A stretch of 23,524 nucleotides of DNA, taken from the IMG/VR virus record IMGVR_UViG_3300006190_000014, positions 1 to 23,524 of that record. One strand, 5' to 3'. Numbering within the stretch: the first letter of the stretch is position 1; every line of letters starts with the position of its first letter. This document shows, in pieces, positions 1 to 21,138 of the stretch. The DNA is from a virus. The notes under the pieces are model-generated. The model was not told the origin of the DNA. It saw only the letters and a program-made list of their open reading frames with translations, and did no database searches. The position numbers and the translations under genes are program-made.

Positions 1-1198
1 AATCGAATGTAAATGAATCGTAGGTGTATAGTACCAACTTAGATTTATAACCACTCATTACTTTGAATACCTCTTTTAGTATCAAAACGTTGCTTTCTGT
101 TTCCAGTGCTTGCAGATAATAATTAAACAGCTTTGGAGCGTTCATCTCCGTTAAATTATCCGCATGTAACCTTCTTGTTAATAAGTATGTAGTTATACAC
201 TTTTCCGACTTAAATTGTTTCCATAATTTTCTAGTAAAATCGTGTATTTTACCAAAAAACTCTATCTCACGCATCTCTTTAGGAATACCACCATAAATTA
301 TTTTGAAAGATAAAGCTTTTGACTCCTTATACTCTTCTTCTGTAAGTTCATCTTTACCAAAGTACTGTTTACCAAGATATTCATGCACTGAAGTATCTGG
401 AAACGTGTAGCCTACCACTTCAGCCATTAAACGGATATGATATGCATCAAAGTCAAATTCCAACATCTTACCACCATCAAATCGACTAATGAATCTGTCT
501 CTAGACCCATCTTCTTTGTTTAATGCTGCATAGTTTACGCCACCATATCGGTTAGATGGTCGTCCTGTAGAGGTGTAAGGGTTATATTGAGAATACTCTG
601 TTTTATCTAATGTAAATAATCCTGAAGATTCGATAGCATATAAGTTATATAACATTAATTCATTATAATGCTTATATGCTTGAGCTTGCTGTAGGTTGTC
701 TGTTACATAATGCTTATATGTACTATCCTTAACGCTCCTGCACTTTTCAAGATGTTTATATATAGGTATAATTGTGTTTACTCTTGGGAATTTTATATAG
801 TTACGCTCTATAAAATCATGAGCTGTTGTTGAGAATCCTGATGTGTCTATTGGTAAGTTATTTTTAAACCAAGCTGATAAGTTGAGATCTAATAGTTTTT
901 TTGATTTAGATATTCCCCATTTAAAGATATGCAAAAATTCTTTCTTATCATTTACATAGATATATGAAAATTTTGATAATATACCTTCTACTTGGTTAAT
1001 TGTAAATTTAATATCTGAATCTGGATGATCAATCGGTATTATAAAATCCTGTGACCTTGATGCTAAATATAATAAACTAATTGTTGTTTCGGCTGGGTGC
1101 TTATGTATATCAGTATATATAGGTATAACGAAAATCTCAGATTGATTCTGAGATAACTTGAATATTTCCATTACAGTTTGTCTGGATTCAACTATCAT
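1..1198 (-). CDS. DNA polymerase family A (C-terminus cut off by window edge)
   Basis: Template-directed DNA polymerase of the Pol I/T7 type, most likely the phage replicative enzyme. About 399 residues are visible and the reading frame leaves the window still open. Polymerase motifs are readable in order: a TSTGRPSNR segment (the TGR motif that contacts the template-primer) followed by NYAAL; motif A as LEFDFDAYHIRLMA with the metal-binding Asp at residue 249; motif B (O helix) as SKALSFKIIYGG with Lys294, Phe298 and Tyr302 matching E. coli Lys758, Phe762 and Tyr766; and motif C as YTYDSFTFD with Asp394. About 200 residues precede the motifs, and I see no DxE exonuclease signature there, so proofreading may be absent or encoded elsewhere. 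The start is the first ATG after the upstream stop, 29 bases away; no good Shine-Dalgarno is visible. T4 itself uses a family B enzyme, so this is a clear departure; the far-T4 phage RM378 is known for a split family A enzyme. Confidence 0.93.
   Translation of the reverse strand, partial: MIVESRQTVMEIFKLSQNQSEIFVIPIYTDIHKHPAETTISLLYLASRSQDFIIPIDHPDSDIKFTINQVEGILSKFSYIYVNDKKEFLHIFKWGISKSKKLLDLNLSAWFKNNLPIDTSGFSTTAHDFIERNYIKFPRVNTIIPIYKHLEKCRSVKDSTYKHYVTDNLQQAQAYKHYNELMLYNLYAIESSGLFTLDKTEYSQYNPYTSTGRPSNRYGGVNYAALNKEDGSRDRFISRFDGGKMLEFDFDAYHIRLMAEVVGYTFPDTSVHEYLGKQYFGKDELTEEEYKESKALSFKIIYGGIPKEMREIEFFGKIHDFTRKLWKQFKSEKCITTYLLTRRLHADNLTEMNAPKLFNYYLQALETESNVLILKEVFKVMSGYKSKLVLYTYDSFTFD
178..197. 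repeat. 20-base exact repeat, copy 1 (inside polymerase gene)
   Basis: The plus-strand string ttaataagtatgtagttata occurs here, within the family A polymerase coding sequence (encoding part of ITTYLL), and again at 15300-15319 in the gap before the tail tube gene. The flanking bases differ at both ends, so the match is exactly 20 bases. Confidence 0.9.
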
Positions 1199-1227: not shown

Positions 1228-1857
1228 TTACAACTGTATATCAGTATTTGTATTATCATCTTGTAGTGCATACACCGTATACTGTGTTAATCTATACTCT
1301 AAATGTTGCAATATTCCAGGTAAATCATGATTTACTTCTCTGAGTGATCTACGGTTTGTACCAATAACACCTGGAATTAATATAATATTGCCATTCATTA
1401 CATCTTCACGTGGACCTTTAATCTTCCACTTCATGCTAACTGCTTTATAAAAATCTGGATTTAGCCCAGCTGCTGTATCACTTAATAATTTAAACTGCTC
1501 TTTATTAATTTCACGTATACGACCGTTTATATCGTTCCGCTGCTTTATAAAGAAGCGAACAATATATCCTCTCAATAGATCATCAGTGTCATATGATGGA
1601 AAGTGGTGATTAGGATCATCAAACTCTTGATCTGTAATTATACCTTTACTTTCTGCTAATTGAATATATAACTGACTTGCTTCATTTTCAACATACTCAA
1701 GTACATACAATCGCTTTGATTTACCAGTAAATACTCTATCTGTAAAGGCACCGTTAGCATTTATGTTATAATACCCAGTGTATTCTTCACCATCTAACAT
1801 AAACTGTTCACCTTCAGTGTACTGATTTTCTTTTTTTATGTAGCTAGGTGTATACAT
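1228..1857 (-). CDS. Conserved phage protein, possibly baseplate or virion associated
   Basis: Protein of 209 residues that I cannot assign to a named family. The N-terminal part (residues 17-31) reads like EQFMLDGEEYTGYYN and is followed by FTGKSKRLY; residues 98-122 hold RGYIVRFFIKQRND and EINKEQF. This arrangement resembles a recurrent small protein of uncultured tailed phages, found by memory rather than by a search. There is no signal peptide or membrane segment. Its ATG lies one base after the stop codon of the 913-residue hub-like gene, so translation is probably coupled, and this position at the end of the baseplate block suggests a structural or assembly role. The alternative is a protein tied to the polymerase gene that follows 29 bases later. 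Confidence 0.8.
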   Translation of the reverse strand: MYTPSYIKKENQYTEGEQFMLDGEEYTGYYNINANGAFTDRVFTGKSKRLYVLEYVENEASQLYIQLAESKGIITDQEFDDPNHHFPSYDTDDLLRGYIVRFFIKQRNDINGRIREINKEQFKLLSDTAAGLNPDFYKAVSMKWKIKGPREDVMNGNIILIPGVIGTNRRSLREVNHDLPGILQHLEYRLTQYTVYALQDDNTNTDIQL

Positions 1858-1858
1858 A

Positions 1859-4600
1859 TTATCCTGGCCCTATGGAGGTTTGTGATGGTGGTGGTGGAGT
1901 AAAACCTGGAGGCATCATCCCTTTATAAGTCACCCTTTTAGGCTTCACTACATCTGTTGCTCCATCGTAAGTTGATGACCCCATAACTTTAGTGAAATCA
2001 GTATCGTTTTTTACCTTTTTATGTTTTACCACAGTTTTCTTAACTTCTTCATTTACAGTTTCATCTGCTTTTGCTGCAGCTGCACCTCCTTTTTCTGGTA
2101 CCTTATATAATAAATCACGTAGAATACTAACTGATTCAGCAACATCAGAATCGTTGGATCCCTTATAATATAATCTAGCTAGTCGGTCAGATAAAACTTT
2201 TTCATTATCTACTTTAGCTTCTTGTTTTTCAGTTACGGCAGTTACAGGCATACCTGATTCAGGATCAGCTCCTGTACCACCCATTACTAAGTCAATAGAT
2301 TCAGCTGATCTAAATATACCTGATGGATATACTCCCTCATTTCCATATACTTTCTCTTTTTGATTACCATCTTCTTGTACTTCATTATCTTCTGTAATCA
2401 TTCCTTGGATTGCTTCAGTTGATGCTATTATTATAGTAGCATCGTTTGTTTCTGATGGTACTATGTTTTTTAATTTAATTTTCCGTAAACTATCTTCTAA
2501 AGGAGCCCATCTAAAATTTGCAGTTATAGTAGTATCCCAAGAGGTTGCGTTAATATTATGCTGTATATTAGATGCAAATAGATATGCTTGATTTTGATAT
2601 CGAGATGGCATATAATCAACTGAGAAACTTGTACCATATTGAATACCTGATATACCATCTAACGACATATCAACATTTACAGGTATAATATTTTTATTCT
2701 GTATCTCACCTATCTTTACATCTTCTCCAGTAAAGGGCCCATTAGCAGCTATATATAGAGCATTTTTCATTTGATTACTTATACTAGATTGCATAGAGAG
2801 TGATTTAAGTAAACTAGCTTGGCTATCTACTGAAAGTTCTAGTGCTTCAACCTTACCACTCCAGTTAAAATTTCTGTCTATACAAGTCATATAACCCATA
2901 TACTCATCTAACATCCTCCACTGAAACGCCCATACCTTGCCACATGCATTATTTATTTCAGTTGTTACACTATCTAGAAAAGATTGAACGGAATTAGCAG
3001 TTTCTGAGTATTCTAGTAGAATATCAAAATTTACAAATATATTAGCTAAGAATCCAGCTCCATTTTCAGATTCACGTTTATAATCACCACCTACATATAA
3101 AAGATCTGCTATTGATTTAGGTATATTAAAATCACACCCCTCACCTTTTAAACCAGTTGGTACATAATTTGATGTACCATAAAGTTTTTTAGAAGCATCT
3201 ACAACTTTATAAGGTTCACCACCTATTTGATTTGGCAATAGACATACATCAGGATCTACTGAGATTAAATTCTTGTGATTGCTTATAGCTGCTATCGGTC
3301 TCATAGGAATATCAACTCCTGTAGTATCTACACCGATACCATCTTCAAGACTAGGCCTTGTATCCACTGCTCCATTGCTTAATCCAGCTGATCGGTCAGC
3401 TTCAGTACCACCTATAGAGAATAGAGCAATAGCATTTGATGCTGGAGCTGTACCTCGAGTTGATTCACTTGTTAATCCATAAAGCTTATTAAGCAACACA
3501 TCTACTATATCACCAAATCTTATATAAGTATGTTTCTGTCTTTCAGTTTTATTTTTATCACCAACCGCTTTACTTGTAGTACCAGATTTCATTTTAAAAA
3601 TTTTAGCTTTAAACAAACCTATCTGATCCAGTGTTATACTTTCTTCACTAATCTGATTGTTTTTACCTTTTTTTGAAAAATTCTTATGAATATCCTCTAA
3701 AGCAGAGTATAGTGTCAACCCATCTTTATTAGAAAAATCACTAGAGCCTGCTTTAAATGGTGTATTAGTATTTATGGTGAATATGCTATCACCAAAGTCA
3801 GTTATATCAGTTTTGCAATCAAAAGATAAATCTGCGTTTACTGACCAGCTAAAATTTACTACTGTACCAAACATTCCATCATAGCAACCACCAGAAAGAA
3901 CTCTGTTAGTTGATATCGCGTTATAAACTTGATTAGGATCTTTTAATACCTCATTATCTAGTTCAACTAATTTAATTTCATTACTAGCTCGTTCTGCAGC
4001 TTCGTCTGCAGTATTTATAGACCATCCCCATTCAAGTAATAATTTAATTCCTGGATACATATATAACTTTTCTAATCGCTCTAAATCTTGAAGAGTATAA
4101 CACTTAAATGCAATTGATGCTTTTTTAAGAGCTCCCATATCCCCTTTGTAGGTAACATTTACATCAGTAATACCTGGCATAGGTTTATAGTTTCGCTTTA
4201 ATTGTGCACCTTCTCCAGCTGGTGGTAATCCACCAATCTGGAATGGATTAACATATTGCTCATCAAACGTGTGTGCTAAATTTACTCGTTTCTCAGCTTG
4301 ATCATATTGACCAGTACCTCCCCACATAACATGTCGAAATCTAGTTGTTTCACTCGGTGTCTCATTATACACTTGTTGAGCTAGTTTCCATTCTGGATTA
4401 CCATCATATTCACCAACTGGCACTGCGTTAGATACTAAACGTACCCAAGGCCGTTTGGTGTTATGCCAATTTTTTAAATTCTCAATACCACATACTTGAG
4501 AACCTTGTGAGTCCGATCTACGACCGCTCATACCTATAGTTCTCCTTATAAGTTCTTGAGTTACATAATTTCTTGGGGATGAATCACCTATTCCTGGCAT
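1859..4600 (-). CDS. Large baseplate protein, possibly hub (gp27-like)
   Basis: Protein of 913 residues, probably part of the baseplate centre. Residues 141-152 (MPGITDVNVTYK) and 183-193 (PGIKLLLEWGW) form a pattern I associate with large structural proteins of T4-related phages. Residues about 667-698 contain an alternating hydrophobic stretch ending in ATSWDTTITANFRW, which is like the final beta-strands of phage hub and tail-tip proteins of the gp27 / Mu gp44 type (typical form GWTTTLxGxxR). The last 200 residues look disordered: charged, alanine- and lysine-rich, ending in a proline-rich tail (PPGFTPPPPSQ). It starts three bases after the stop of the gp53-like gene with no clear ribosome site, which suggests coupling. 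The hub assignment is inferred from position (after tape measure and tube initiator) and weak motif resemblance; a wedge or other baseplate role is possible. Confidence 0.85.
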   Translation of the reverse strand: MPGIGDSSPRNYVTQELIRRTIGMSGRRSDSQGSQVCGIENLKNWHNTKRPWVRLVSNAVPVGEYDGNPEWKLAQQVYNETPSETTRFRHVMWGGTGQYDQAEKRVNLAHTFDEQYVNPFQIGGLPPAGEGAQLKRNYKPMPGITDVNVTYKGDMGALKKASIAFKCYTLQDLERLEKLYMYPGIKLLLEWGWSINTADEAAERASNEIKLVELDNEVLKDPNQVYNAISTNRVLSGGCYDGMFGTVVNFSWSVNADLSFDCKTDITDFGDSIFTINTNTPFKAGSSDFSNKDGLTLYSALEDIHKNFSKKGKNNQISEESITLDQIGLFKAKIFKMKSGTTSKAVGDKNKTERQKHTYIRFGDIVDVLLNKLYGLTSESTRGTAPASNAIALFSIGGTEADRSAGLSNGAVDTRPSLEDGIGVDTTGVDIPMRPIAAISNHKNLISVDPDVCLLPNQIGGEPYKVVDASKKLYGTSNYVPTGLKGEGCDFNIPKSIADLLYVGGDYKRESENGAGFLANIFVNFDILLEYSETANSVQSFLDSVTTEINNACGKVWAFQWRMLDEYMGYMTCIDRNFNWSGKVEALELSVDSQASLLKSLSMQSSISNQMKNALYIAANGPFTGEDVKIGEIQNKNIIPVNVDMSLDGISGIQYGTSFSVDYMPSRYQNQAYLFASNIQHNINATSWDTTITANFRWAPLEDSLRKIKLKNIVPSETNDATIIIASTEAIQGMITEDNEVQEDGNQKEKVYGNEGVYPSGIFRSAESIDLVMGGTGADPESGMPVTAVTEKQEAKVDNEKVLSDRLARLYYKGSNDSDVAESVSILRDLLYKVPEKGGAAAAKADETVNEEVKKTVVKHKKVKNDTDFTKVMGSSTYDGATDVVKPKRVTYKGMMPPGFTPPPPSQTSIGPG

Positions 4601-4603
4601 AAT

Positions 4604-4927
4604 CTATATACTATTCTTTTTGCTTAAATCGCTTGTTATTTTTGTTATATTTTTAGGTATAAATATCTGTTTACCTGTTTCAATAAACATACTATCACCT
4701 GGTAAGTTGTTTGCTAATGCTATAATCCACCATTTAGTTACATCTTTATAGAATCTATTAGCTAATAGATCTAATCTATCAATACTAGATGCAATAATAA
4801 CAGGATCACCAGGCTGTCTTGTAATTACAGGTAAAATAGTTGAGTCAATTCCATCCTTATTAAAGTGTGGGCTATCACTATGGATAGTTAAATTTTTTAT
4901 CTTACTATTATATATATATCGTTGCAT
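4604..4927 (-). CDS. Baseplate wedge protein, T4 gp53-like / LysM-like
   Basis: Small protein of 107 residues. Residues 50-92 read DRLDLLANRFYKDVTKWW, then LANNLPGD, then ETGKQIFIPK, a LysM-like fold pattern: the LDLLA-YxD-xxxWWxIAxAN helix pair and a final GxxIxIP strand. This pattern is known from T4 gp53 (a wedge subunit that attaches to the tube end) and from P2 gpX type proteins, which sit inside the baseplate rather than binding free peptidoglycan. The C-terminal 15 residues are charged. A GGAG ribosome site lies in the 11-base gap after the 1316-residue gene. Neighbours on both sides are baseplate candidates, which supports the call. Length is shorter than T4 gp53 (about 196 residues), so only the core domain is present. 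Confidence 0.82.
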   Translation of the reverse strand: MQRYIYNSKIKNLTIHSDSPHFNKDGIDSTILPVITRQPGDPVIIASSIDRLDLLANRFYKDVTKWWIIALANNLPGDSMFIETGKQIFIPKNITKITSDLSKKNSI

Positions 4928-7900: not shown

Positions 7901-8889
7901 GGTTGCGGTGGTGGTGGTCCTGGATAATGTCTACCGTCTTGTATCGTCGGTGTATTGTCTATTAAGCTTGAAAGATGCCTTCCATTAAATAAACTAGGTG
8001 CAGGTGCTCCTGGGTACATACTATACTCTAATCCAGCTGATGTATAGTCAGTTTGCTGTGGTTCTTTATTTAATATAAACCCTGAAGCAAATGTATTATC
8101 AAGCCAATCAGCAGTACCTAGTTGTGCATATGGTGACAAATCTGCTTGTTGTAGTGGTAATATTATATCTTGATTCCAGGTATCATTTATTGAGCTATCA
8201 GTAAACCTACCATCAGGTGCAGTTAAGCTATCATCTATTCCACTTGACTCATGTCTACCACTTAATGTTGTTGCTGCATCATCAATTCCACTTGACTCAT
8301 GTCTTCCTGTTTGAGTTGTTAGTGTATCACTAACTCCACTCGATTCATGCCTACCGTCTGGTGTAGTTAAGCCGTCGTCTACACCACTTGATTCATGTCT
8401 ACCTGTTTGAGTAGTTGCTCCGTCATCAATACCGCTAGATTCATGTCTACCAGTTAATGCAGAACTTATTGGTGCTGTATTACTGTTTTGATTATTAGCA
8501 CCTAATGTAGATGTTAAAGGTGCTGTATTGCTTGTTTGATTGTTTGCACCAAGTAATGAACTTAATGGTGCTGTATTACTTGTTTGGTTATTTGCACCAA
8601 GTACTGAGTTTAATGGTGCTATGTTTGATGATTCATGCCTACCTTGATTAGATAAAGTTATAGATGGTATATCCGATTTCATTGCAGTTGCAAAGTTAGC
8701 AAATGGTATTGGAAACACATCTGATTTCATACGAGTAGTAAATGCTGCGAACCCCATTGGTGCTATATCCGACTTCATATTAGTACTAAACGCAGAGAAA
8801 CTCATAGGAGAAATTAGAGATTCCTCATGTCTACCTAATAGTGTTCCAGGTATATTTATTTGATTTGGTATGTTATCTTCTATCGCCAT
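4939..8889 (-). CDS. Giant baseplate protein: N-terminal 16-residue repeats, C-terminal tube-initiator-like domain
   Basis: Protein of 1316 residues with at least three parts. Residues 19-242 are 14 tandem 16-residue repeats; residues 338-432 hold two copies of a 50-52 residue repeat (DATGFT...QFQG...YTYPDS) with a weaker third copy near 548-565; residues about 1116-1280 form a compact domain with VRFRAYVSDISD, W-SKASYIGRPDQVHNY, then R-LSFTLKFAA and LTYVIIGDG. That last pattern (F-A-I-d-I-s-W-GR-d-Y-R-x-I-s-F) is typical of proteins that cap or initiate the tail tube, such as T4 gp48/gp54. T4 gp48 and gp54 are only about 320-365 residues, so most of this protein is extra. Its ATG overlaps the tape measure stop by one base (TAATG), implying coupled synthesis. 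The middle region (about 580-1100) is unassigned, with glycine-rich stretches. Tube-initiator role is inference; virion structural nature is strong. Confidence 0.88.
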   Translation of the reverse strand: MAIEDNIPNQINIPGTLLGRHEESLISPMSFSAFSTNMKSDIAPMGFAAFTTRMKSDVFPIPFANFATAMKSDIPSITLSNQGRHESSNIAPLNSVLGANNQTSNTAPLSSLLGANNQTSNTAPLTSTLGANNQNSNTAPISSALTGRHESSGIDDGATTQTGRHESSGVDDGLTTPDGRHESSGVSDTLTTQTGRHESSGIDDAATTLSGRHESSGIDDSLTAPDGRFTDSSINDTWNQDIILPLQQADLSPYAQLGTADWLDNTFASGFILNKEPQQTDYTSAGLEYSMYPGAPAPSLFNGRHLSSLIDNTPTIQDGRHYPGPPPPQPTIDITTGVDFFGFNTDATGFTIQNSLLDSQFQGITGQNYTYPDSQGLGFGSVDSSQGVNFLDIPNLDATGFTTFFDTGIPTQFQGATTSDYTYPDSHGLGYGLIGNSLFTNTYPTPYTTPLFPDGFVENQSIEDSQFSLESFAGGGKIGLEAEGFKHATFGGVQGQVPIMGNNPTGLGSFTSGGATSGDIGIINAFDDTTSGAKGFTPQMFDLALPKTQFNGVAGTPGSLEYTYPTDVGPAGIGRLMYDVPFADAGNPYGGEYSAALTQQIPTNPLIQINKGFEISPGGYNLYDAAPDRLHFHEGNKYQESLGNFSTTITLNGGHPKSILADFASREGSPTPLDNMKVLIPGNTGPVGAGSVIAKYTSMDGYPNYNTQNLSYSSAGVLNQREGFVRNELISRWEDFDYNKSELYGHDITFGGYGDDPKGLKSYKEPHIIRDIGKKWNGFSNEGTPFDEGAFRGGFLTLANRAVLDVVRNTKHIIEDPIKGLLWGLKQIGLQASNPKVETEMLFLGRRTRVFNLGVGLLVNMLTGPFGIKLYRHGILNGIGEGDSTYEKAVKAHGGISPYDSDRPLDGKASVGKGGGNRLVQLKDELLFAGSANGAGGFLGLGNLLGYEGQKIDLLSDNVLGGPKSLYGIGGTTIRRYDNSTQHNNGDPYLDENSTTAGGLSSLLGKYLTLDHSGLETMAFATNGNPYKAHDFRNELVKFDNDNLSVTAGEQAFPYEEYSREALFGYTRYDNTRDRTIQEGGNQLFNLEHGVDNFTDFDQDYTDDVDKVGNHRDMIKLIIHDIPQDKKVRFRAYVSDISDTITPEWSKASYIGRPDQVHNYTSATRQLSFTLKFAALSRNSMIPMYQKVNYLYGLCYPHLTKGLPNQAVAETMTSPLVRLTLGDWLHKTPGYFDSMTTTIDNDYSWDINLEEDPNGTAQLPQILSVALTYVIIGDGPHLSAIQTVGTDKISGIHIGGGVSNATADGKFFAELPIESE
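7594..7878 (-). repeat. Two-copy 50-52 residue coding repeat
   Basis: Two consecutive copies inside the giant baseplate protein, residues 338-380 and 388-432. Each reads V(D/N)F, then DATGFT, then (S/T)QFQG, then YTYPDS(Q/H)GLG(F/Y)G. The shared landmarks are 50-52 residues apart. A third, diverged copy of the QFxG to YTYP part sits at residues 548-565 (7195-7248). The function is unknown. Confidence 0.85.
8164..8835 (-). repeat. 48-bp tandem coding repeat, 14 copies in three subfamilies
   Basis: In-frame repeat of exactly 16 codons, unbroken in register over residues 19-242. Copies start at residues 19, 35, 51, 67, 83, 99, 115, 131, 147, 163, 179, 195, 211 and 227. The first four carry MKSD-type units with a PMxFxxF centre, copies 6-8 are ANNQTSNTAPLSSLLG-like, and copies 9-13 are GRHESSGIDD-like; copies 1, 5 and 14 are mixed forms. 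On the plus strand the GRHESS boxes show as a catg(t/c)ct(a/t)cc motif at 8251, 8299, 8347, 8395 and 8443, each exactly 48 bases apart. One more isolated unit (GRHLSSLIDNTPTIQD) appears at residue 303. Confidence 0.97.
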
Positions 8890-15344: not shown

Positions 15345-18300
15345 TTATTCAGGGAATACTGCTCCTGTTGGTAAAATATTAAAGTCTAGTATAATAAATT
15401 CTGCAGATTTAGCTGGTTGTAAGAATATCTCACCAATCATCTGATTTCTATCTATTACATCTGCTGTGTTATTAGATCCATCCATTATCACCTTGTAAGC
15501 ATATAACCCTTGTCGTTGTTGTACACTTTCAAAGTATGGATTTGCTATATTTAAAAATCTATTTCTAGTTGCTGAAGTGTTATTTTCAAATACTAAGTAT
15601 TTAGTTGCAGATGCAATAAATTTCTTAGCTGCTATTAATAATCTTCGTACGTTAATTCTATCTAATGCTGATGGTCTAGCTTGAAGTGTTTTTTGACCCC
15701 AGATGCAAATTCCTTCTTTAAACGTAGCAATTGGATTTACTCTACCTTCATAAAGATCATCTCTCTCTGCATGCGTTAATCTTGTTGGTACATCAATAGC
15801 TTCAGTTAAAATACCTCTGTTCAATCCAGCTGGCGCAAACCATTCGAATGCAACCTGATCATTTTTAGATATTACACCTGCCATTACTGCAGAAGGTGGT
15901 ACCCATACCGGTTTATTCTTATCAGTATCAAGTATTTTAACCCAAGGCCAATATGTAGCTACGTAGTTAGAATCAAGTGGCTTAACTGTATTAGTTACTG
16001 TAGATATAGTTGTTGTATCATACCCTACTGCATCCATTAGATATAAAGCATCCCCTCTGTCCTCACATAGATTTTTAGCATGTGTAGTTACTACTGAGTG
16101 TAATCTGTGATTAGGTCCTGGAGTTACCATTAAGTTAATGTCGTATTCATCTGGATTACTTACTGCATTAATTGCTCTTTTATAAGCTTTTGAACCACCT
16201 TTTTCTGCGTTTGATAAATCAAACCCTTGCATATTAGTAGCTACTATATCACTATCCTTTGCAATAAATCTTGAAGGATTAAGTCCATCAAAACCACCTT
16301 GTAAAGGTACTATAAATTGCTTAGTTGATAGATTAATAAGTGCTCCATCAGGTGTTATAGTTAATTCTGCTCCATTTGCTAAAGAAGCTGATGGGTGTTG
16401 TGTACAATGTGATAAGTTAAAGTGCTTGTTATCCCCTACAGTTGAATCTTCTGACGGTATTGGTAGTAAGTAATTATAGTTATCTTTATCTAAATAGTCA
16501 AATCCATAATGAATTCTCTTATTGTAAACGTTATCTGCTATTTGAGTTTTCTTAAGATTGTGAGTAGTAATTGTACCACCTGAACCTATTTCTACAGTTG
16601 CATTAGTGTGACCAATAAGTGATGCTGATGGCATAGTACCTACATTTGCTATAACTGGTTGAGATAAAGCTTCAAATCCAAACGGTACTAAATCAGCTGA
16701 TATACCTTGGTCTTTAACATCTTCCGGTACCTCTACTCGTATATAGTAACTTAAGTTTGCATAATCACCATAAACTGTTACTTTACCGTTTGCATCAATT
16801 TCTTGATATCTGTCACCAATAACTCTCGCAATAAAATTAGGTGAGTTAGGGTCCAGAGTTAGATTGCTGTAAGTCTCTAATATATGAGGTCTTAAATCTT
16901 TGTCACCTGATGCTGGGTAAGGTGAGTTAGCTGCATGTATAGTACCATCAACGTCTACTCTTCGTAATGTTAGAGTAAATGTACCGTAATCTGATCCAGC
17001 TACTGCACTTGAATCTTTAATATTACTAATTGCGATTTTGTATGCATAATTTTCACATGATCCATGAGATCTAGTATGAACTTTAAATAACCTAGTTGTT
17101 TTAGGTGATGCATAAGAGCCTAAATTTTGTGATACAATAAATGGCGTTCTTGCTTCATAAGCATTATTACCTGCATATGTATGCAAGTATTTATTGTCTG
17201 CTATATTTGCAGCTACTGTTACTAAACTATCTGCAGCATATGATTTTGATGCATATGAGTTAAATAACATATAATTGTATACTGGTTTGTATCTATCTTT
17301 AGGTGTTCTTCCGAATACGTTACCAAGCCAATTCTCATTCGTTGTATCTATTGAACTAGAGTAAGTTGTATTAGAAGTTAATATATTACCTGTGTCAGTA
17401 TGACCAGTTGTAAAGTTTGTTTGTGGTGAGTAAGTAGTTACTCCTGTTCCTGCTTGATCATCAGTTAAATACAATGTAAATGAACCTCCGTCAATAGAAC
17501 CATTCAACGTACTATCACTACCTATCTTTATAGTAAATGATGCTGTAGCTGGTCCTGCAACTGGTTGAGTTAATGATGCATCATGCCCTACTTGAGGATT
17601 AGCTACATTTCCAGTAAACTTATTACGAACTTCTATTGAATTCGCTGCTGGTAGGTTAGCAAATGCTCCCATTGTTCCTGAAGTAAATGTACCTGAGTTA
17701 CCACCTTGAGTTGAAGAACTTTGGAATGTTCTTGCAGAGAATAATTTTACACCTGGTACTCTACTTGATGTAATTCTATTAATAGCTGAGGCAATAACTT
17801 GTACTATTGAACCAGATAAGTTAAGTGCATTTATTTTAGCACCAACAACTGCAGCTTGTGGGTTAGTAGTGTTAGCACTAGTAGATGAAGATGGCATAAA
17901 CATTTTAATTTGTTTAGTTACTGATGGCATTCCAGTTGGTGCTGCATTTCCTAGCATATTAGTTTGCGGAGCTTTTACTCCTTGCGAACCTGTAAAGAAG
18001 AATCCAAATTTTTCATCAGCTGCTCCTCCTGCAGGATCTGGTGAAGATAATGTAAGGAAAAATCCTCTAAAAGAACCAGTTGCATTACCACCTGAACCAG
18101 TGAAATAAAGGTTTGAGATTTCTCCTACACCATCATTAAATTTAGCATTAAATTTAGCATCACTATCAACATGAGTTGGGTGTAGTACTGCGACTAACTT
18201 ACTAGTACCTCCTGCAGAAGATAAACTTCCAGCAGAGGATTCTACTGCTTTAATTCCAATTAAGTTCGGCGTGTAACCTGTTAATCCAAGCACACGTATA

Positions 18301-18542
18301 ACTGTTACTCGACCAGCACTTTTTAAATAAGATTCAACTGTATAAGGAACATAACTATCTAAAGTTTTTGGTCCGAATACTTGTACGAATTCCTTAAATG
18401 ATTCTATAATTGTAGGTTCAAACGCAGGACCTTTTACTGTTGGTCCTATAATTGCGGCTCCTATCTGTGCAACACCTGCTGGTAAGAAAGATAAGTCTCT
18501 TTCTCTTGTAAATACACCTGGGCTAACTATTTTTTCTGCCAT
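15345..18542 (-). CDS. Tail sheath protein, longer paralog with ~200-residue insert
   Basis: Contractile sheath subunit of 1065 residues, paralog of the gene just upstream. The first 22 residues (MAEKIVSPGVFTRERDLSFLPA) are identical to that paralog and the second half is closely similar throughout, including the family signature MQGFDLS, GICIWGQKTLQ, ALDRINVRRLL and the C-terminal ILDFNILPTGAVFPE, which forms the handshake strands linking neighbouring subunits. Relative to the shorter paralog about 203 residues are added between residues ~115 and ~411, just before the shared VFGxTPKDR landmark. The insert is rich in S, T, G, A and N and reads as extra beta-structured surface domains. T4 gp18 is 659 residues. 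AGGAG lies 8 bases before the ATG. Both sheaths may be mixed in one tail or used in different regions of it. Confidence 0.95.
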   Translation of the reverse strand: MAEKIVSPGVFTRERDLSFLPAGVAQIGAAIIGPTVKGPAFEPTIIESFKEFVQVFGPKTLDSYVPYTVESYLKSAGRVTVIRVLGLTGYTPNLIGIKAVESSAGSLSSAGGTSKLVAVLHPTHVDSDAKFNAKFNDGVGEISNLYFTGSGGNATGSFRGFFLTLSSPDPAGGAADEKFGFFFTGSQGVKAPQTNMLGNAAPTGMPSVTKQIKMFMPSSSTSANTTNPQAAVVGAKINALNLSGSIVQVIASAINRITSSRVPGVKLFSARTFQSSSTQGGNSGTFTSGTMGAFANLPAANSIEVRNKFTGNVANPQVGHDASLTQPVAGPATASFTIKIGSDSTLNGSIDGGSFTLYLTDDQAGTGVTTYSPQTNFTTGHTDTGNILTSNTTYSSSIDTTNENWLGNVFGRTPKDRYKPVYNYMLFNSYASKSYAADSLVTVAANIADNKYLHTYAGNNAYEARTPFIVSQNLGSYASPKTTRLFKVHTRSHGSCENYAYKIAISNIKDSSAVAGSDYGTFTLTLRRVDVDGTIHAANSPYPASGDKDLRPHILETYSNLTLDPNSPNFIARVIGDRYQEIDANGKVTVYGDYANLSYYIRVEVPEDVKDQGISADLVPFGFEALSQPVIANVGTMPSASLIGHTNATVEIGSGGTITTHNLKKTQIADNVYNKRIHYGFDYLDKDNYNYLLPIPSEDSTVGDNKHFNLSHCTQHPSASLANGAELTITPDGALINLSTKQFIVPLQGGFDGLNPSRFIAKDSDIVATNMQGFDLSNAEKGGSKAYKRAINAVSNPDEYDINLMVTPGPNHRLHSVVTTHAKNLCEDRGDALYLMDAVGYDTTTISTVTNTVKPLDSNYVATYWPWVKILDTDKNKPVWVPPSAVMAGVISKNDQVAFEWFAPAGLNRGILTEAIDVPTRLTHAERDDLYEGRVNPIATFKEGICIWGQKTLQARPSALDRINVRRLLIAAKKFIASATKYLVFENNTSATRNRFLNIANPYFESVQQRQGLYAYKVIMDGSNNTADVIDRNQMIGEIFLQPAKSAEFIILDFNILPTGAVFPE

Positions 18543-18573: not shown

Positions 18574-21138
18574 CTATTCAGGAAACGCTGCACCTGTTGG
18601 TAATATGTTAAAGTCTAATATAATGAATTCAGCTGCTTTAGCTGGTTGTAAAAATAATTCACCTACCATCTGATTTCTATCTATTACATCAGGTGTGTTA
18701 TTAGATCCATCCATTATTACTTTAAATGCATGTAATCCTTGTCTTTGTTGTATTGATTCTAAATACGGGTTTACAATGTTTAAAAATCTATTTCTTGTTG
18801 CTGAAGTGTTATTTTCAAATACTAAGTATCTAGTAGCTGATGCGATAAACTTCTTAACTGCAATTAATAATCTTCTAACATTTACTCTGTCTAATGCCGA
18901 TGGCCTTCCTTGAAGTGTTTTTTGACCCCATATACATACTCCCTGACCAGGGAATGTTGCAATAGGATTTACTCTACCTTCATAAAGATCATCTCGCTCT
19001 TCGTGTGTTACTCTATCTGCTGTTTCAATAACTTCAGTAAGTGTCCCTCTATTAAGACCAGCTGGTGCAAACCATTCGAATGCAACCTGATCGTTAAATG
19101 CTATAGCTCCTGGTACTACTGCTGATGGTGGTACCCATACTGGTTTATTAATATCAGTATCAAGTATTTTACACCATGGATAGTACGTTGCAGCATAATT
19201 GGAATCAAAAGCTTTAATTGTATTAGTAACTGTAGCGATTGAGTCACCATAGTTAGCTGCATCCATTACATAGAATGCATCTCCACGTTCTTCACATAAA
19301 TTTTTAGCATGTGTAGTTACTACTGAGTGAAGTCTATGATTAGCACCTGGAGTAACCATCATGTTAATATCGTATTCATCTGGATTACTTACTGCGTTTA
19401 TAGCACGTTTGTAAGCTAAAGATCCATCCTTTTCTGCAGTTGATAAATCAAATCCTTGCATATTTGCAGCTGAAATGTTTGTATCTAATCCTACAAATCT
19501 TGAAGGATTAAATCCATCAAAACCACCTTGGAAAGGTAATATAAATTTCTTAGTAGCTAAATTAATTGTAGAACCACCTGGTGTAATTGTAATTGTAAGG
19601 CCTCCAGCTAAAGATGCTGATGGATGTTGTTTCTCGTTACTTAAATTAAATGCTACATTGTTACCAACTGATTTACCCTCATCTGGAAGTGGTTTTAAAT
19701 AATTATGATTATCAGATTCTAAATAATCAAAACCGTAATAAACGTTTTTGTTATATACATTATCTAGAATTTGTGTTCTCTTGCTAACTGATGGGTTTGT
19801 CTGTCCAATAATAGATGCAGATGGACAAGCTGTTACGCCATTGGTTGTCATTGAAATAGGATCAGTTAATGCTGCATGACCAAATGGAACTAATGTAGGT
19901 GGTATACCTTTATCTTTAACATCTTCAGGAACTTCTACCCATATATGTCTTGAAAGATTAGCATAATCACCTTTTATTGTTACTTTACCATTAGCATCAA
20001 AAGATTGAAACTTATCACCAATGACTCTCGCAATAAAATTAGGTGAGTTAGGGTCTAGAGTTAAGTTGTTAAACTGCTCAATAATTTCTGGCCTTCTATC
20101 TTGATCATTGCTATTTGCAAATGGTGATAGTTGACTGTGTATAGTTGAATTTACATCAACACTTCTTAATCTTATTGAGAATGAACCGTATTCACTACCT
20201 GCAACTGTGCCAGCTGCTCTAATATTATCGATAGCTATTTTGAATTCGTAATTAGTAGCTGACCCGTGTGCTCGTCTATGAATTTTAAATAAATCTATTA
20301 CCTTACCACCAATTTTCTGTGATTGTACAAATGGTGTTCTAGCTTCATATTCATCTTTATTAGTATTATATAATGTACTTAAATCTAAAGTTTTTCTACC
20401 TCTTGTTGTTACAGTTGTTATACCGTTAGCGGGGCTAGAATTTGCATTTGATCTTGAAGCTTCGTTACTAAAGAATACGTAGCTATATACTGGTTTCTTT
20501 CTATCCTTAGGTGTTTTACCAAATACTTTTGATATAAAGTTAGCAGATGCTGGATTCAATGACATTGAATAAGCTGTATCACCTGTTGCTGCTGAACCTA
20601 CATGATTTGGTTTAGTTGCTACAGGAGCTTGAATTTGATGTCCTGTAATACCTACTGTAGTATTAGTTGCTGGAGCATAATCTGCAGCAGAACCTGATAA
20701 AAGCATTACAAAACCTGAACCTGATACATCTAGTATAGATCCTGAAGTTGCAGTGAATTTAGCATCATCATCAACTTGTGATGGATGAAATGCTGCTACT
20801 GTTTTAGATACTTTAGCTGCTGGTAATCCTAGATCAGCGGTTACTGTTACTAATCCATTAGTAAGTGTGTACCCTTTTAATCCTAGGACTCTTACTATAG
20901 TTACACGACCTGCACTTTTTAGGTACGATTCAACTGTATAAGGTACATACGATTCTTTAGATTTAGGTCCAAACACCTGTACGAATTCTTTGAAAGATTC
21001 GATGATAGTTGGTTCAAAAGCTGGACCTTTTACTGTTGGTCCTATAATAGCTGCTCCGATTTCTCCGATAGCTGCTGGTAAGAAAGATAAGTCTCTTTCT
21101 CTGGTAAATACACCTGGACTGACGATTTTTTCTGCCAT
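18574..21138 (-). CDS. Tail sheath protein, shorter paralog
   Basis: Contractile tail sheath subunit of 854 residues. The N-terminus KIVSPGVFTRERD and IGAAIIGPTVKGPAF are typical of the gp18 family, where this segment joins subunits around the tube. The conserved C-terminal core includes GFNPSRF, MQGFDLSTAEKDGS, NPDEYDINMMVTPG, VCIWGQKTLQGRPSALDRV and NRFLNIVNPYLESI. It ends in ILDFNILPTGAAFPE. The region 90-200 is variable and short compared with the downstream paralog. AGGAG lies 9 bases before the ATG. It is the first of the tandem pair to be transcribed, 31 bases before the second copy's ATG. DNA similarity between the two start regions is also high, which points to duplication or gene conversion. 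Confidence 0.96.
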   Translation of the reverse strand: MAEKIVSPGVFTRERDLSFLPAAIGEIGAAIIGPTVKGPAFEPTIIESFKEFVQVFGPKSKESYVPYTVESYLKSAGRVTIVRVLGLKGYTLTNGLVTVTADLGLPAAKVSKTVAAFHPSQVDDDAKFTATSGSILDVSGSGFVMLLSGSAADYAPATNTTVGITGHQIQAPVATKPNHVGSAATGDTAYSMSLNPASANFISKVFGKTPKDRKKPVYSYVFFSNEASRSNANSSPANGITTVTTRGRKTLDLSTLYNTNKDEYEARTPFVQSQKIGGKVIDLFKIHRRAHGSATNYEFKIAIDNIRAAGTVAGSEYGSFSIRLRSVDVNSTIHSQLSPFANSNDQDRRPEIIEQFNNLTLDPNSPNFIARVIGDKFQSFDANGKVTIKGDYANLSRHIWVEVPEDVKDKGIPPTLVPFGHAALTDPISMTTNGVTACPSASIIGQTNPSVSKRTQILDNVYNKNVYYGFDYLESDNHNYLKPLPDEGKSVGNNVAFNLSNEKQHPSASLAGGLTITITPGGSTINLATKKFILPFQGGFDGFNPSRFVGLDTNISAANMQGFDLSTAEKDGSLAYKRAINAVSNPDEYDINMMVTPGANHRLHSVVTTHAKNLCEERGDAFYVMDAANYGDSIATVTNTIKAFDSNYAATYYPWCKILDTDINKPVWVPPSAVVPGAIAFNDQVAFEWFAPAGLNRGTLTEVIETADRVTHEERDDLYEGRVNPIATFPGQGVCIWGQKTLQGRPSALDRVNVRRLLIAVKKFIASATRYLVFENNTSATRNRFLNIVNPYLESIQQRQGLHAFKVIMDGSNNTPDVIDRNQMVGELFLQPAKAAEFIILDFNILPTGAAFPE

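Follow-up and report, generated by a model that had tools for sequence, protein, structure and literature searches.

The DNA analyzed here, which we call the window, is a whole viral record of 23,524 bases, and the gene at its left end encodes a short family A DNA polymerase on the minus strand (positions 2–1198). The open reading frame starts with an ATG at 1198 and is cut at its 3′ end by the end of the contig, so that 399 of 440 amino acids are present; another contig, L002, encodes the identical 399 residues and then runs on to a stop codon, giving the 440-residue form. A gap of 29 bases (1199–1227) separates the polymerase from a gene of 209 amino acids directly upstream (1228–1857, minus strand), beyond which lies the end of a tail/baseplate run, comprising a 913-residue ORF and a 107-residue baseplate wedge-like ORF (1859–4927, minus strand). 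This upstream gene run contains a T4_baseplate match (7.1e-14), and the minus-strand T4-type tail module as a whole features two tail sheath genes, a gp19-like tube, a T4 baseplate hub, a tape-measure-sized ORF, and the wedge. The ORF coordinates, together with the tail and baseplate matches, confirm the initial annotation in its description of a family A polymerase lying next to a tail module, in the same direction and at a spacing of 29 bases, and its assignment of the DNA to a divergent T4-like phage carrying such a gene is likewise supported. The tail sheath of the window matches the sheaths of Microcystis phage Mel-JY01, the 484-kb genome LR756508, Flavobacterium phage vB_FspM_immuto (hereafter immuto), and Rhodothermus phage RM378; membership of the Far-T4 clade is judged by the major capsid protein gp23, and the contig itself has no capsid gene.

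Two minor features of the tail module deserve mention. The tandem tail sheath genes (15345–18542 and 18574–21138, minus strand) encode proteins of 1065 and 854 amino acids that are 63% identical over 746 columns, consistent with a duplicated sheath of which one copy is longer. Separately, a 1316-residue ORF contains two tandem arrays of 48-base units (8230–8456 and 8462–8620), encoding GRHESSG- and NNQTSNTAP-type repeats.

Family A identity of the short polymerase

Searched against Pfam, the window protein matches DNA_pol_A over residues 208–309 at 3.7e-05 and 23.3 bits, and across searches it scores 23–29 bits, below the cut-off of 34.3 bits that several relatives exceed. Thirty of 33 relatives match this family and none of the 33 matches any exonuclease family (E ≤ 0.01 in both cases), and a profile of the same 33 sequences retrieves the Klenow fragment from the PDB (4.9e-09). 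The AlphaFold model (pLDDT 84.7, pTM 0.84) aligns end to end over residues 1–433 with large fragments of Pol I at a VIA Z of about 26, pairing 396–406 residues with the 567–580-residue M. smegmatis and Bacillus chains. Its Foldseek list has human Pol ν at the top, with Pol θ, Klenow, and G20c Pol I also present. Because of the Klenow profile match, the matches among relatives, and the fold alignment, we consider the weak DNA_pol_A match to be more than chance. Against PHROGs, the window fragment has no match at 0.01, while the 440-residue form matches a DNA polymerase family at 3.3e-4. Aligning a 13-sequence alignment to one full-length immuto PolA with hhalign gave a statistically weak result (probability 0.2%, E 0.33); the usable Klenow alignment is that from the PDB profile search with 33 relatives.

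Homologs were collected in two scans of viral contigs, the first yielding 18 loci and the second, made with the 13-sequence alignment, at least 576 related stretches, from which 80 loci were kept. Pooling both scans with immuto, Mel-JY01, and LR756508 gave 99 genes, nine of which were set aside as shorter than 395 amino acids or without a stop; the other 90 are full length (408–455 amino acids, median 440). The residues by which family A membership is judged are all present: the aspartates of motifs A and C and, on the O helix, Lys, Phe/Tyr, and Tyr. The gene occurs in uncultured T4-related aquatic phages.

A FastTree phylogeny rooted at the midpoint places the window in a clade of nine (support 1.0) and also supports an immuto clade; since the deeper nodes are weak (0.43–0.65), we make no claim about the root or the branching order. 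Within the window clade, six pairs give whole-gene dN of 0.11–0.15 against dS of 0.79–1.58, with dN low in both halves of the gene, which indicates that both halves of the protein are under purifying selection. Weak matches also occur in the human gut fragments MT837804 and MT839648, and the homologs L448–L452 lie on contigs binned in bacterial or archaeal MAGs (Flavobacteriales, Nitrosopelagicus) that are probably phage contigs.

The N-terminal exonuclease-type domain

Residues 1–165 (704–1198, minus strand) are predicted to adopt a Klenow-type 3′–5′ exonuclease fold that lacks the catalytic acids. Folded alone (pLDDT 93.6), this domain aligns with Klenow residues 331–511 at a VIA Z of 13.1 (156 aligned residues, 3.0 Å, 11% identity), and RNase D/Rrp6-type exonucleases lead its Foldseek matches. 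The conserved acidic tetrad is absent from residues 1–185 of the 90 homologs, where columns 4 and 60 are the only ones at least 95% acidic; Asp104 occurs in 82 homologs, and position 30, with which the first strand ends, is Asp in 57, Asn in 16, and Ser in 16. The acids that mark a proofreading PolA (DxE, NxxxD, YxxxD) are thus not conserved although the fold is there. As a control, immuto-type phages supplied 41 distinct PolAs of full length, and all 41 keep D32-x-E34, D106, and D204.

Because the fold is retained and the acids are lost, while the control PolAs keep theirs, we regard the domain as a dead exonuclease rather than an absent one. The initial annotation had reported no visible DxE signature, which is right for the residues but not for the domain, which persists as a fold; the exonuclease domain within residues 1–200 that it named as a refuting result is indeed recognized by fold, in residues 1–165, yet without catalytic acids. 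Conservation and predicted structure together show a domain that appears to be retained purely as a scaffold. Histidines 34, 58, 127, and 149 of this dead domain are conserved in 83–87 of the 90 homologs and could be structural or form a new site.

Polymerase motifs and the thumb region

The polymerase motifs all lie on the minus strand. The palm entry motif TGRPSN (residues 211–216; 551–568) follows the exonuclease-end Gly193 by 18–36 residues among the 90 homologs. Motif A (residues 249–256; 431–454) contains Asp249 and has His254 at the Glu710 position. Motif B, the O helix (residues 290–303; 290–331), contains Lys294, Phe298, and Tyr302-Gly303, and at its Arg754 position 70 homologs have Tyr and 20 have Arg. 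Motif C (residues 393–395; 14–22) reads Tyr-Asp-Ser where Pol I has His-Asp-Glu; its first two residues never vary, and the Glu883 position is Ser in 79 homologs and Ala in 11. In all, Asp249, His254, Arg213, Phe298, Gln363, Tyr393, and Asp394 are invariant in the 90 homologs and correspond in the profile alignment to Asp705, Glu710, Arg668, Phe762, Gln849, His881, and Asp882 of Klenow, respectively, whereas Lys294 (Lys758; the one remaining residue is an X), Tyr302 (Tyr766), and His272 (His734) each occur in 89. Part of the Klenow numbering is printed in PMC9324360.

About 90 Klenow residues of the thumb region have no counterpart in the profile alignment, and the model shows no helices there; in PMC9324360, the corresponding interval of the Thermus phage Tt72 polymerase is assigned to the thumb. 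Palm and fingers are present and the thumb is missing in the model, in the Klenow profile alignment, and across the 90 homologs. As far as alignment and model can show, then, the thumb is almost entirely deleted, and the palm and fingers are retained with their catalytic aspartates and O-helix Lys, Phe, and Tyr. PMC9324360 gives S616 of the Tt72 polymerase at the Glu883 position and D384 and D615 as its critical residues, so a serine in place of Glu883 does not prevent activity. Without its thumb, and with His for Glu710 and Tyr for Arg754, the short enzyme could be weak or dead.

Both altered positions are conventional in the full-length PolAs of related phages, 41 of 41 of which keep Glu710 and Arg754, and Glu710 of E. 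coli Pol I is described in PMC9324360 as sterically blocking ribonucleotides. The short protein might therefore be a specialized polymerase, devoted to RNA primer extension, ribonucleotide tolerance, or lesion crossing, with the change from Glu to His at the sugar-discriminating position as an adaptation. The uniform His of the short proteins would fit such a role, as would the lack of proofreading and a Foldseek list that is led by Pol ν and includes Pol θ; however, Phe298, which forms the second half of the gate, is retained throughout, and Pol ν and Pol θ rank by fold only, alongside Klenow. We view this specialization as possible but unlikely.

Gene neighborhood and expression signals

The genes around the short polymerase are strongly conserved. 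The 209-residue ORF family lies immediately upstream in 71 of 73 testable loci (L058 and L061 are unmatched), with an upstream gap of −11 to 114 bases across the 73 homologous loci. On the other side, the next gene starts −23 to 58 bases from the polymerase in all 75 loci, with a 4-base overlap in 25. Genes for SSB, UvsX, and a 5′–3′ exonuclease follow downstream in every one of the 34 loci that have 8 kb or more of sequence, and a helicase in 32; the two helicase misses (L007 and L008) are at the edge of the sequence scanned, and the L008 contig does encode a helicase. DNA ligase is nearby in three of the 34, all from the window clade. With SSB, UvsX, exonuclease, and helicase as its neighbors, the gene sits where an enzyme of repair and lagging-strand synthesis would, not where a virion part would.

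The same data bear on whether the protein is catalytic at all. A polymerase-like protein that had become a scaffold, or a structural or regulatory part of the replisome or the virion, would be consistent with the lost thumb, the changed Arg754 position in 70 of 90 homologs, the already dead exonuclease part, and the baseplate genes adjacent in 71 of 73 loci. Yet the two aspartates that bind metal, like the Lys, Phe, and Tyr of the O helix, are essentially invariant in homologs down to about 30% identity, and since a non-catalytic protein would not need them, loss of catalysis is unlikely; we consider this explanation distinctly improbable.

Expression signals near the gene are sparse. The T4 late-promoter octamer TATAAATA is not enriched (3 found against 5.4 expected), and none adjoins the polymerase gene; control of the gene by a late promoter of the T4 type was rejected. 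Around the gene, 8 sigma-70-like sites occur against 6.0 expected, a chance-level count. The scanned kilobase contains two weak terminator-like hairpins against 0.3 expected, one within the polymerase frame (1154–1134) and one in the upstream gene, with none in the 29-base gap, and we base no conclusion on them.

A protein of variable length (370–564 amino acids) is encoded right behind the short polymerase (L003:9050–10744, L010:5897–7129, and L013:11320–12432). It has a conserved EW.YR..G start, no Pfam family, and, in L003, a weak HNH-endonuclease match, and is a candidate partner.

A second polymerase in related phages

We searched for a family B polymerase (PolB) on 41 IMG/VR contigs with the short gene, 12 from the 18 loci of the first scan and 29 from the 78 new loci of the second, the latter picked by how long their contigs run. 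PolB is present on 20 of the 41, always on the same strand and 13.1–23.1 kb downstream (median 15.1 kb). It is found on each of the 18 contigs that extend 18.0 kb or more downstream and on two of the 23 whose downstream sequence is shorter than 17 kb. No second family A gene was found on the 37 contigs searched for one (all but L002, L006, L009, and L018). Mel-JY01 and LR756508 also carry PolB. In LR756508, the PolB matches fall in two frames (1022 and 625 amino acids) about 6 kb apart within 260623–266900, as a split or interrupted gene would.

The immuto-type phages differ in the replicase. The genome of immuto has no PolB and instead encodes a full-length PolA with an exonuclease domain (PF00476, 193 bits; PF01612, 42 bits). 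Among 79 new loci from a QueF scan, 17 are on long immuto-type contigs, and all 17 of these encode the full-length PolA, 14 also the short gene, and none PolB; the three without the short gene are linear, possibly incomplete records. In the relatives, the short protein is thus a second polymerase besides the main replication polymerase.

The initial annotation had taken the short polymerase to stand in place of a family B replicase and anticipated that PolB would be absent and that a separate exonuclease gene would serve as partner. Neither the substitution nor the need for a partner is borne out: PolB, looked for as the decisive absence, turned up in relatives (though not on the window contig), and their exonuclease-bearing replicase is encoded elsewhere on the same genome. 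That the short protein is the sole replicase of its phage, with proofreading supplied by another gene, is therefore rejected as very improbable: it heads the replication cluster and the window has no other polymerase match, and family A enzymes are the replicases of many phages, but long related contigs consistently encode PolB or a full-length PolA, the latter with the short gene on 14 contigs, and the thumb and exonuclease site are missing.

For the window's own lineage, the evidence comes from synteny. Neither the ORF list of the 23.5-kb contig nor the family A search shows another polymerase match, and PolB is not seen on the nearest relatives whose contigs extend downstream, L003 (82% identical; 14.0 kb downstream) and L008 (56% identical; 16.9 kb downstream); no contig of the nine-member window clade extends far enough downstream to reach the expected PolB position. 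Scans with cysteine-synthase, ribonucleotide reductase, QueF, and QueE led to L206, L207, L286, and L287, whose helicases are 90–96% identical to that of L003 and which end before that position. L386 is collinear with L008 (83–85% identical at the DNA level, 89% in the helicase) and encodes PolB, and L049, whose protein is 45% identical to the window's, has both the short polymerase and PolB. Because L386 and L049 carry PolB, we infer from synteny that the phage of the window has it as well.

Comparison with known polymerases

Like the Klenow and Bacillus Pol I large fragments, the short polymerase has an exonuclease-type fold followed by palm and fingers with motifs A, B, and C (Z about 26). 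Unlike them, it lacks some 90 thumb residues and the exonuclease acids in its 408–455 amino acids, has His for Glu710 and mostly Tyr for Arg754, and reads YDS or YDA in place of HDE at motif C. The Bst fragment is likewise exonuclease-dead.

Among named phages, only six records match over most of the query; the protein is called a polymerase in one species and hypothetical in another. The immuto homolog gp001 (NC_055915, "DNA polymerase family A"; 36% identity over 92% of the window protein) occupies the same place after the tail genes, with an SSB-RecA-exonuclease-DnaB run behind it, but its motif C is YDA, and the other polymerase of immuto is the full-length PolA gp199, not PolB. Baltic Flavobacterium phages are reportedly the subject of a published study. 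The Mel-JY01 (PP395634) homolog WWT39333 (31% identity) also follows tail genes and differs in being 408 amino acids long, annotated as hypothetical, and missed by Pfam alone; its genome encodes an 848-residue PolB with an exonuclease domain.

RM378 shares a related tail sheath (28%) and encodes its polymerase and exonuclease in separate genes, which had made it the precedent offered by the initial annotation. Since both its polymerase (PF00136) and its exonuclease (PF03104) are family B, and nothing in RM378 matches family A, that analogy concerns the wrong family; moreover, the exonuclease fold of the window is fused to the polymerase, with its acids absent, rather than split off as in RM378. 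The RM378 gene annotated "DNA polymerase" (NP_835611; L031 1996–2937) matches the PolB exonuclease domain only, and the polymerase portion of PolB is encoded at about 80 kb.

The Thermus phage enzymes include G20c Pol I, which is among the fold matches, and the family A polymerase of Tt72, which shares Ser at the Glu883 position (PMC9324360) but is a 703-residue enzyme with a thumb and strong proofreading. Far-T4 genomes are treated in PMC4360716. In searches of the open literature, none of the titles or abstracts listed describes an additional, short polymerase of family A in Far-T4-type phages.

Discussion

We consider it reasonably probable that the short family A protein is an accessory second DNA polymerase beside the replicase. 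Of the earlier interpretation, a short family A polymerase without a working-looking exonuclease site survives, whereas the replicase substitute and the exonuclease partner do not. As an accessory polymerase, the protein would be active, a low-processivity, non-proofreading enzyme that draws its grip on DNA from partners, with SSB, UvsX, or neighbor-encoded proteins taking the place of the thumb. The separate 5′–3′ exonuclease and the short polymerase could together amount to a split "Pol I", which would probably fill the short gaps that arise where primers are removed and in intermediates of recombination, rather than copy the genome. The short polymerase was probably retained as the replicase switched between family B and a full-length enzyme of family A.

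A bolder version, which we put forward as speculation and think improbable, would make these proteins a widespread class of thumbless second polymerases in Far-T4 phages that has until now gone undescribed. Their sugar gate would have been rebuilt, with His for Glu710, to use or extend ribonucleotides, making them a phage counterpart of a primer-extending polymerase that was kept while the replicase was swapped between the two families.

The accessory polymerase matters beyond this locus. One viral collection contains at least 576 stretches that encode it, and surveys that take polA as a marker of replicase or lifestyle in aquatic phages would draw wrong conclusions from such genomes. An enzyme of family A that keeps its active site but has lost thumb and proofreading is a natural experiment on how small a working Pol I can be, and an accessory enzyme that stays constant while the replicase family changes makes replicase exchange directly testable in such phages.

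Genes resembling QueC, QueE, QueD, and QueF, recognized by eye, lie between ribonucleotide reductase and PolB in L271, L287, L229, and L206; these queuosine/7-deazaguanine-type genes suggest that the relatives have modified phage DNA.
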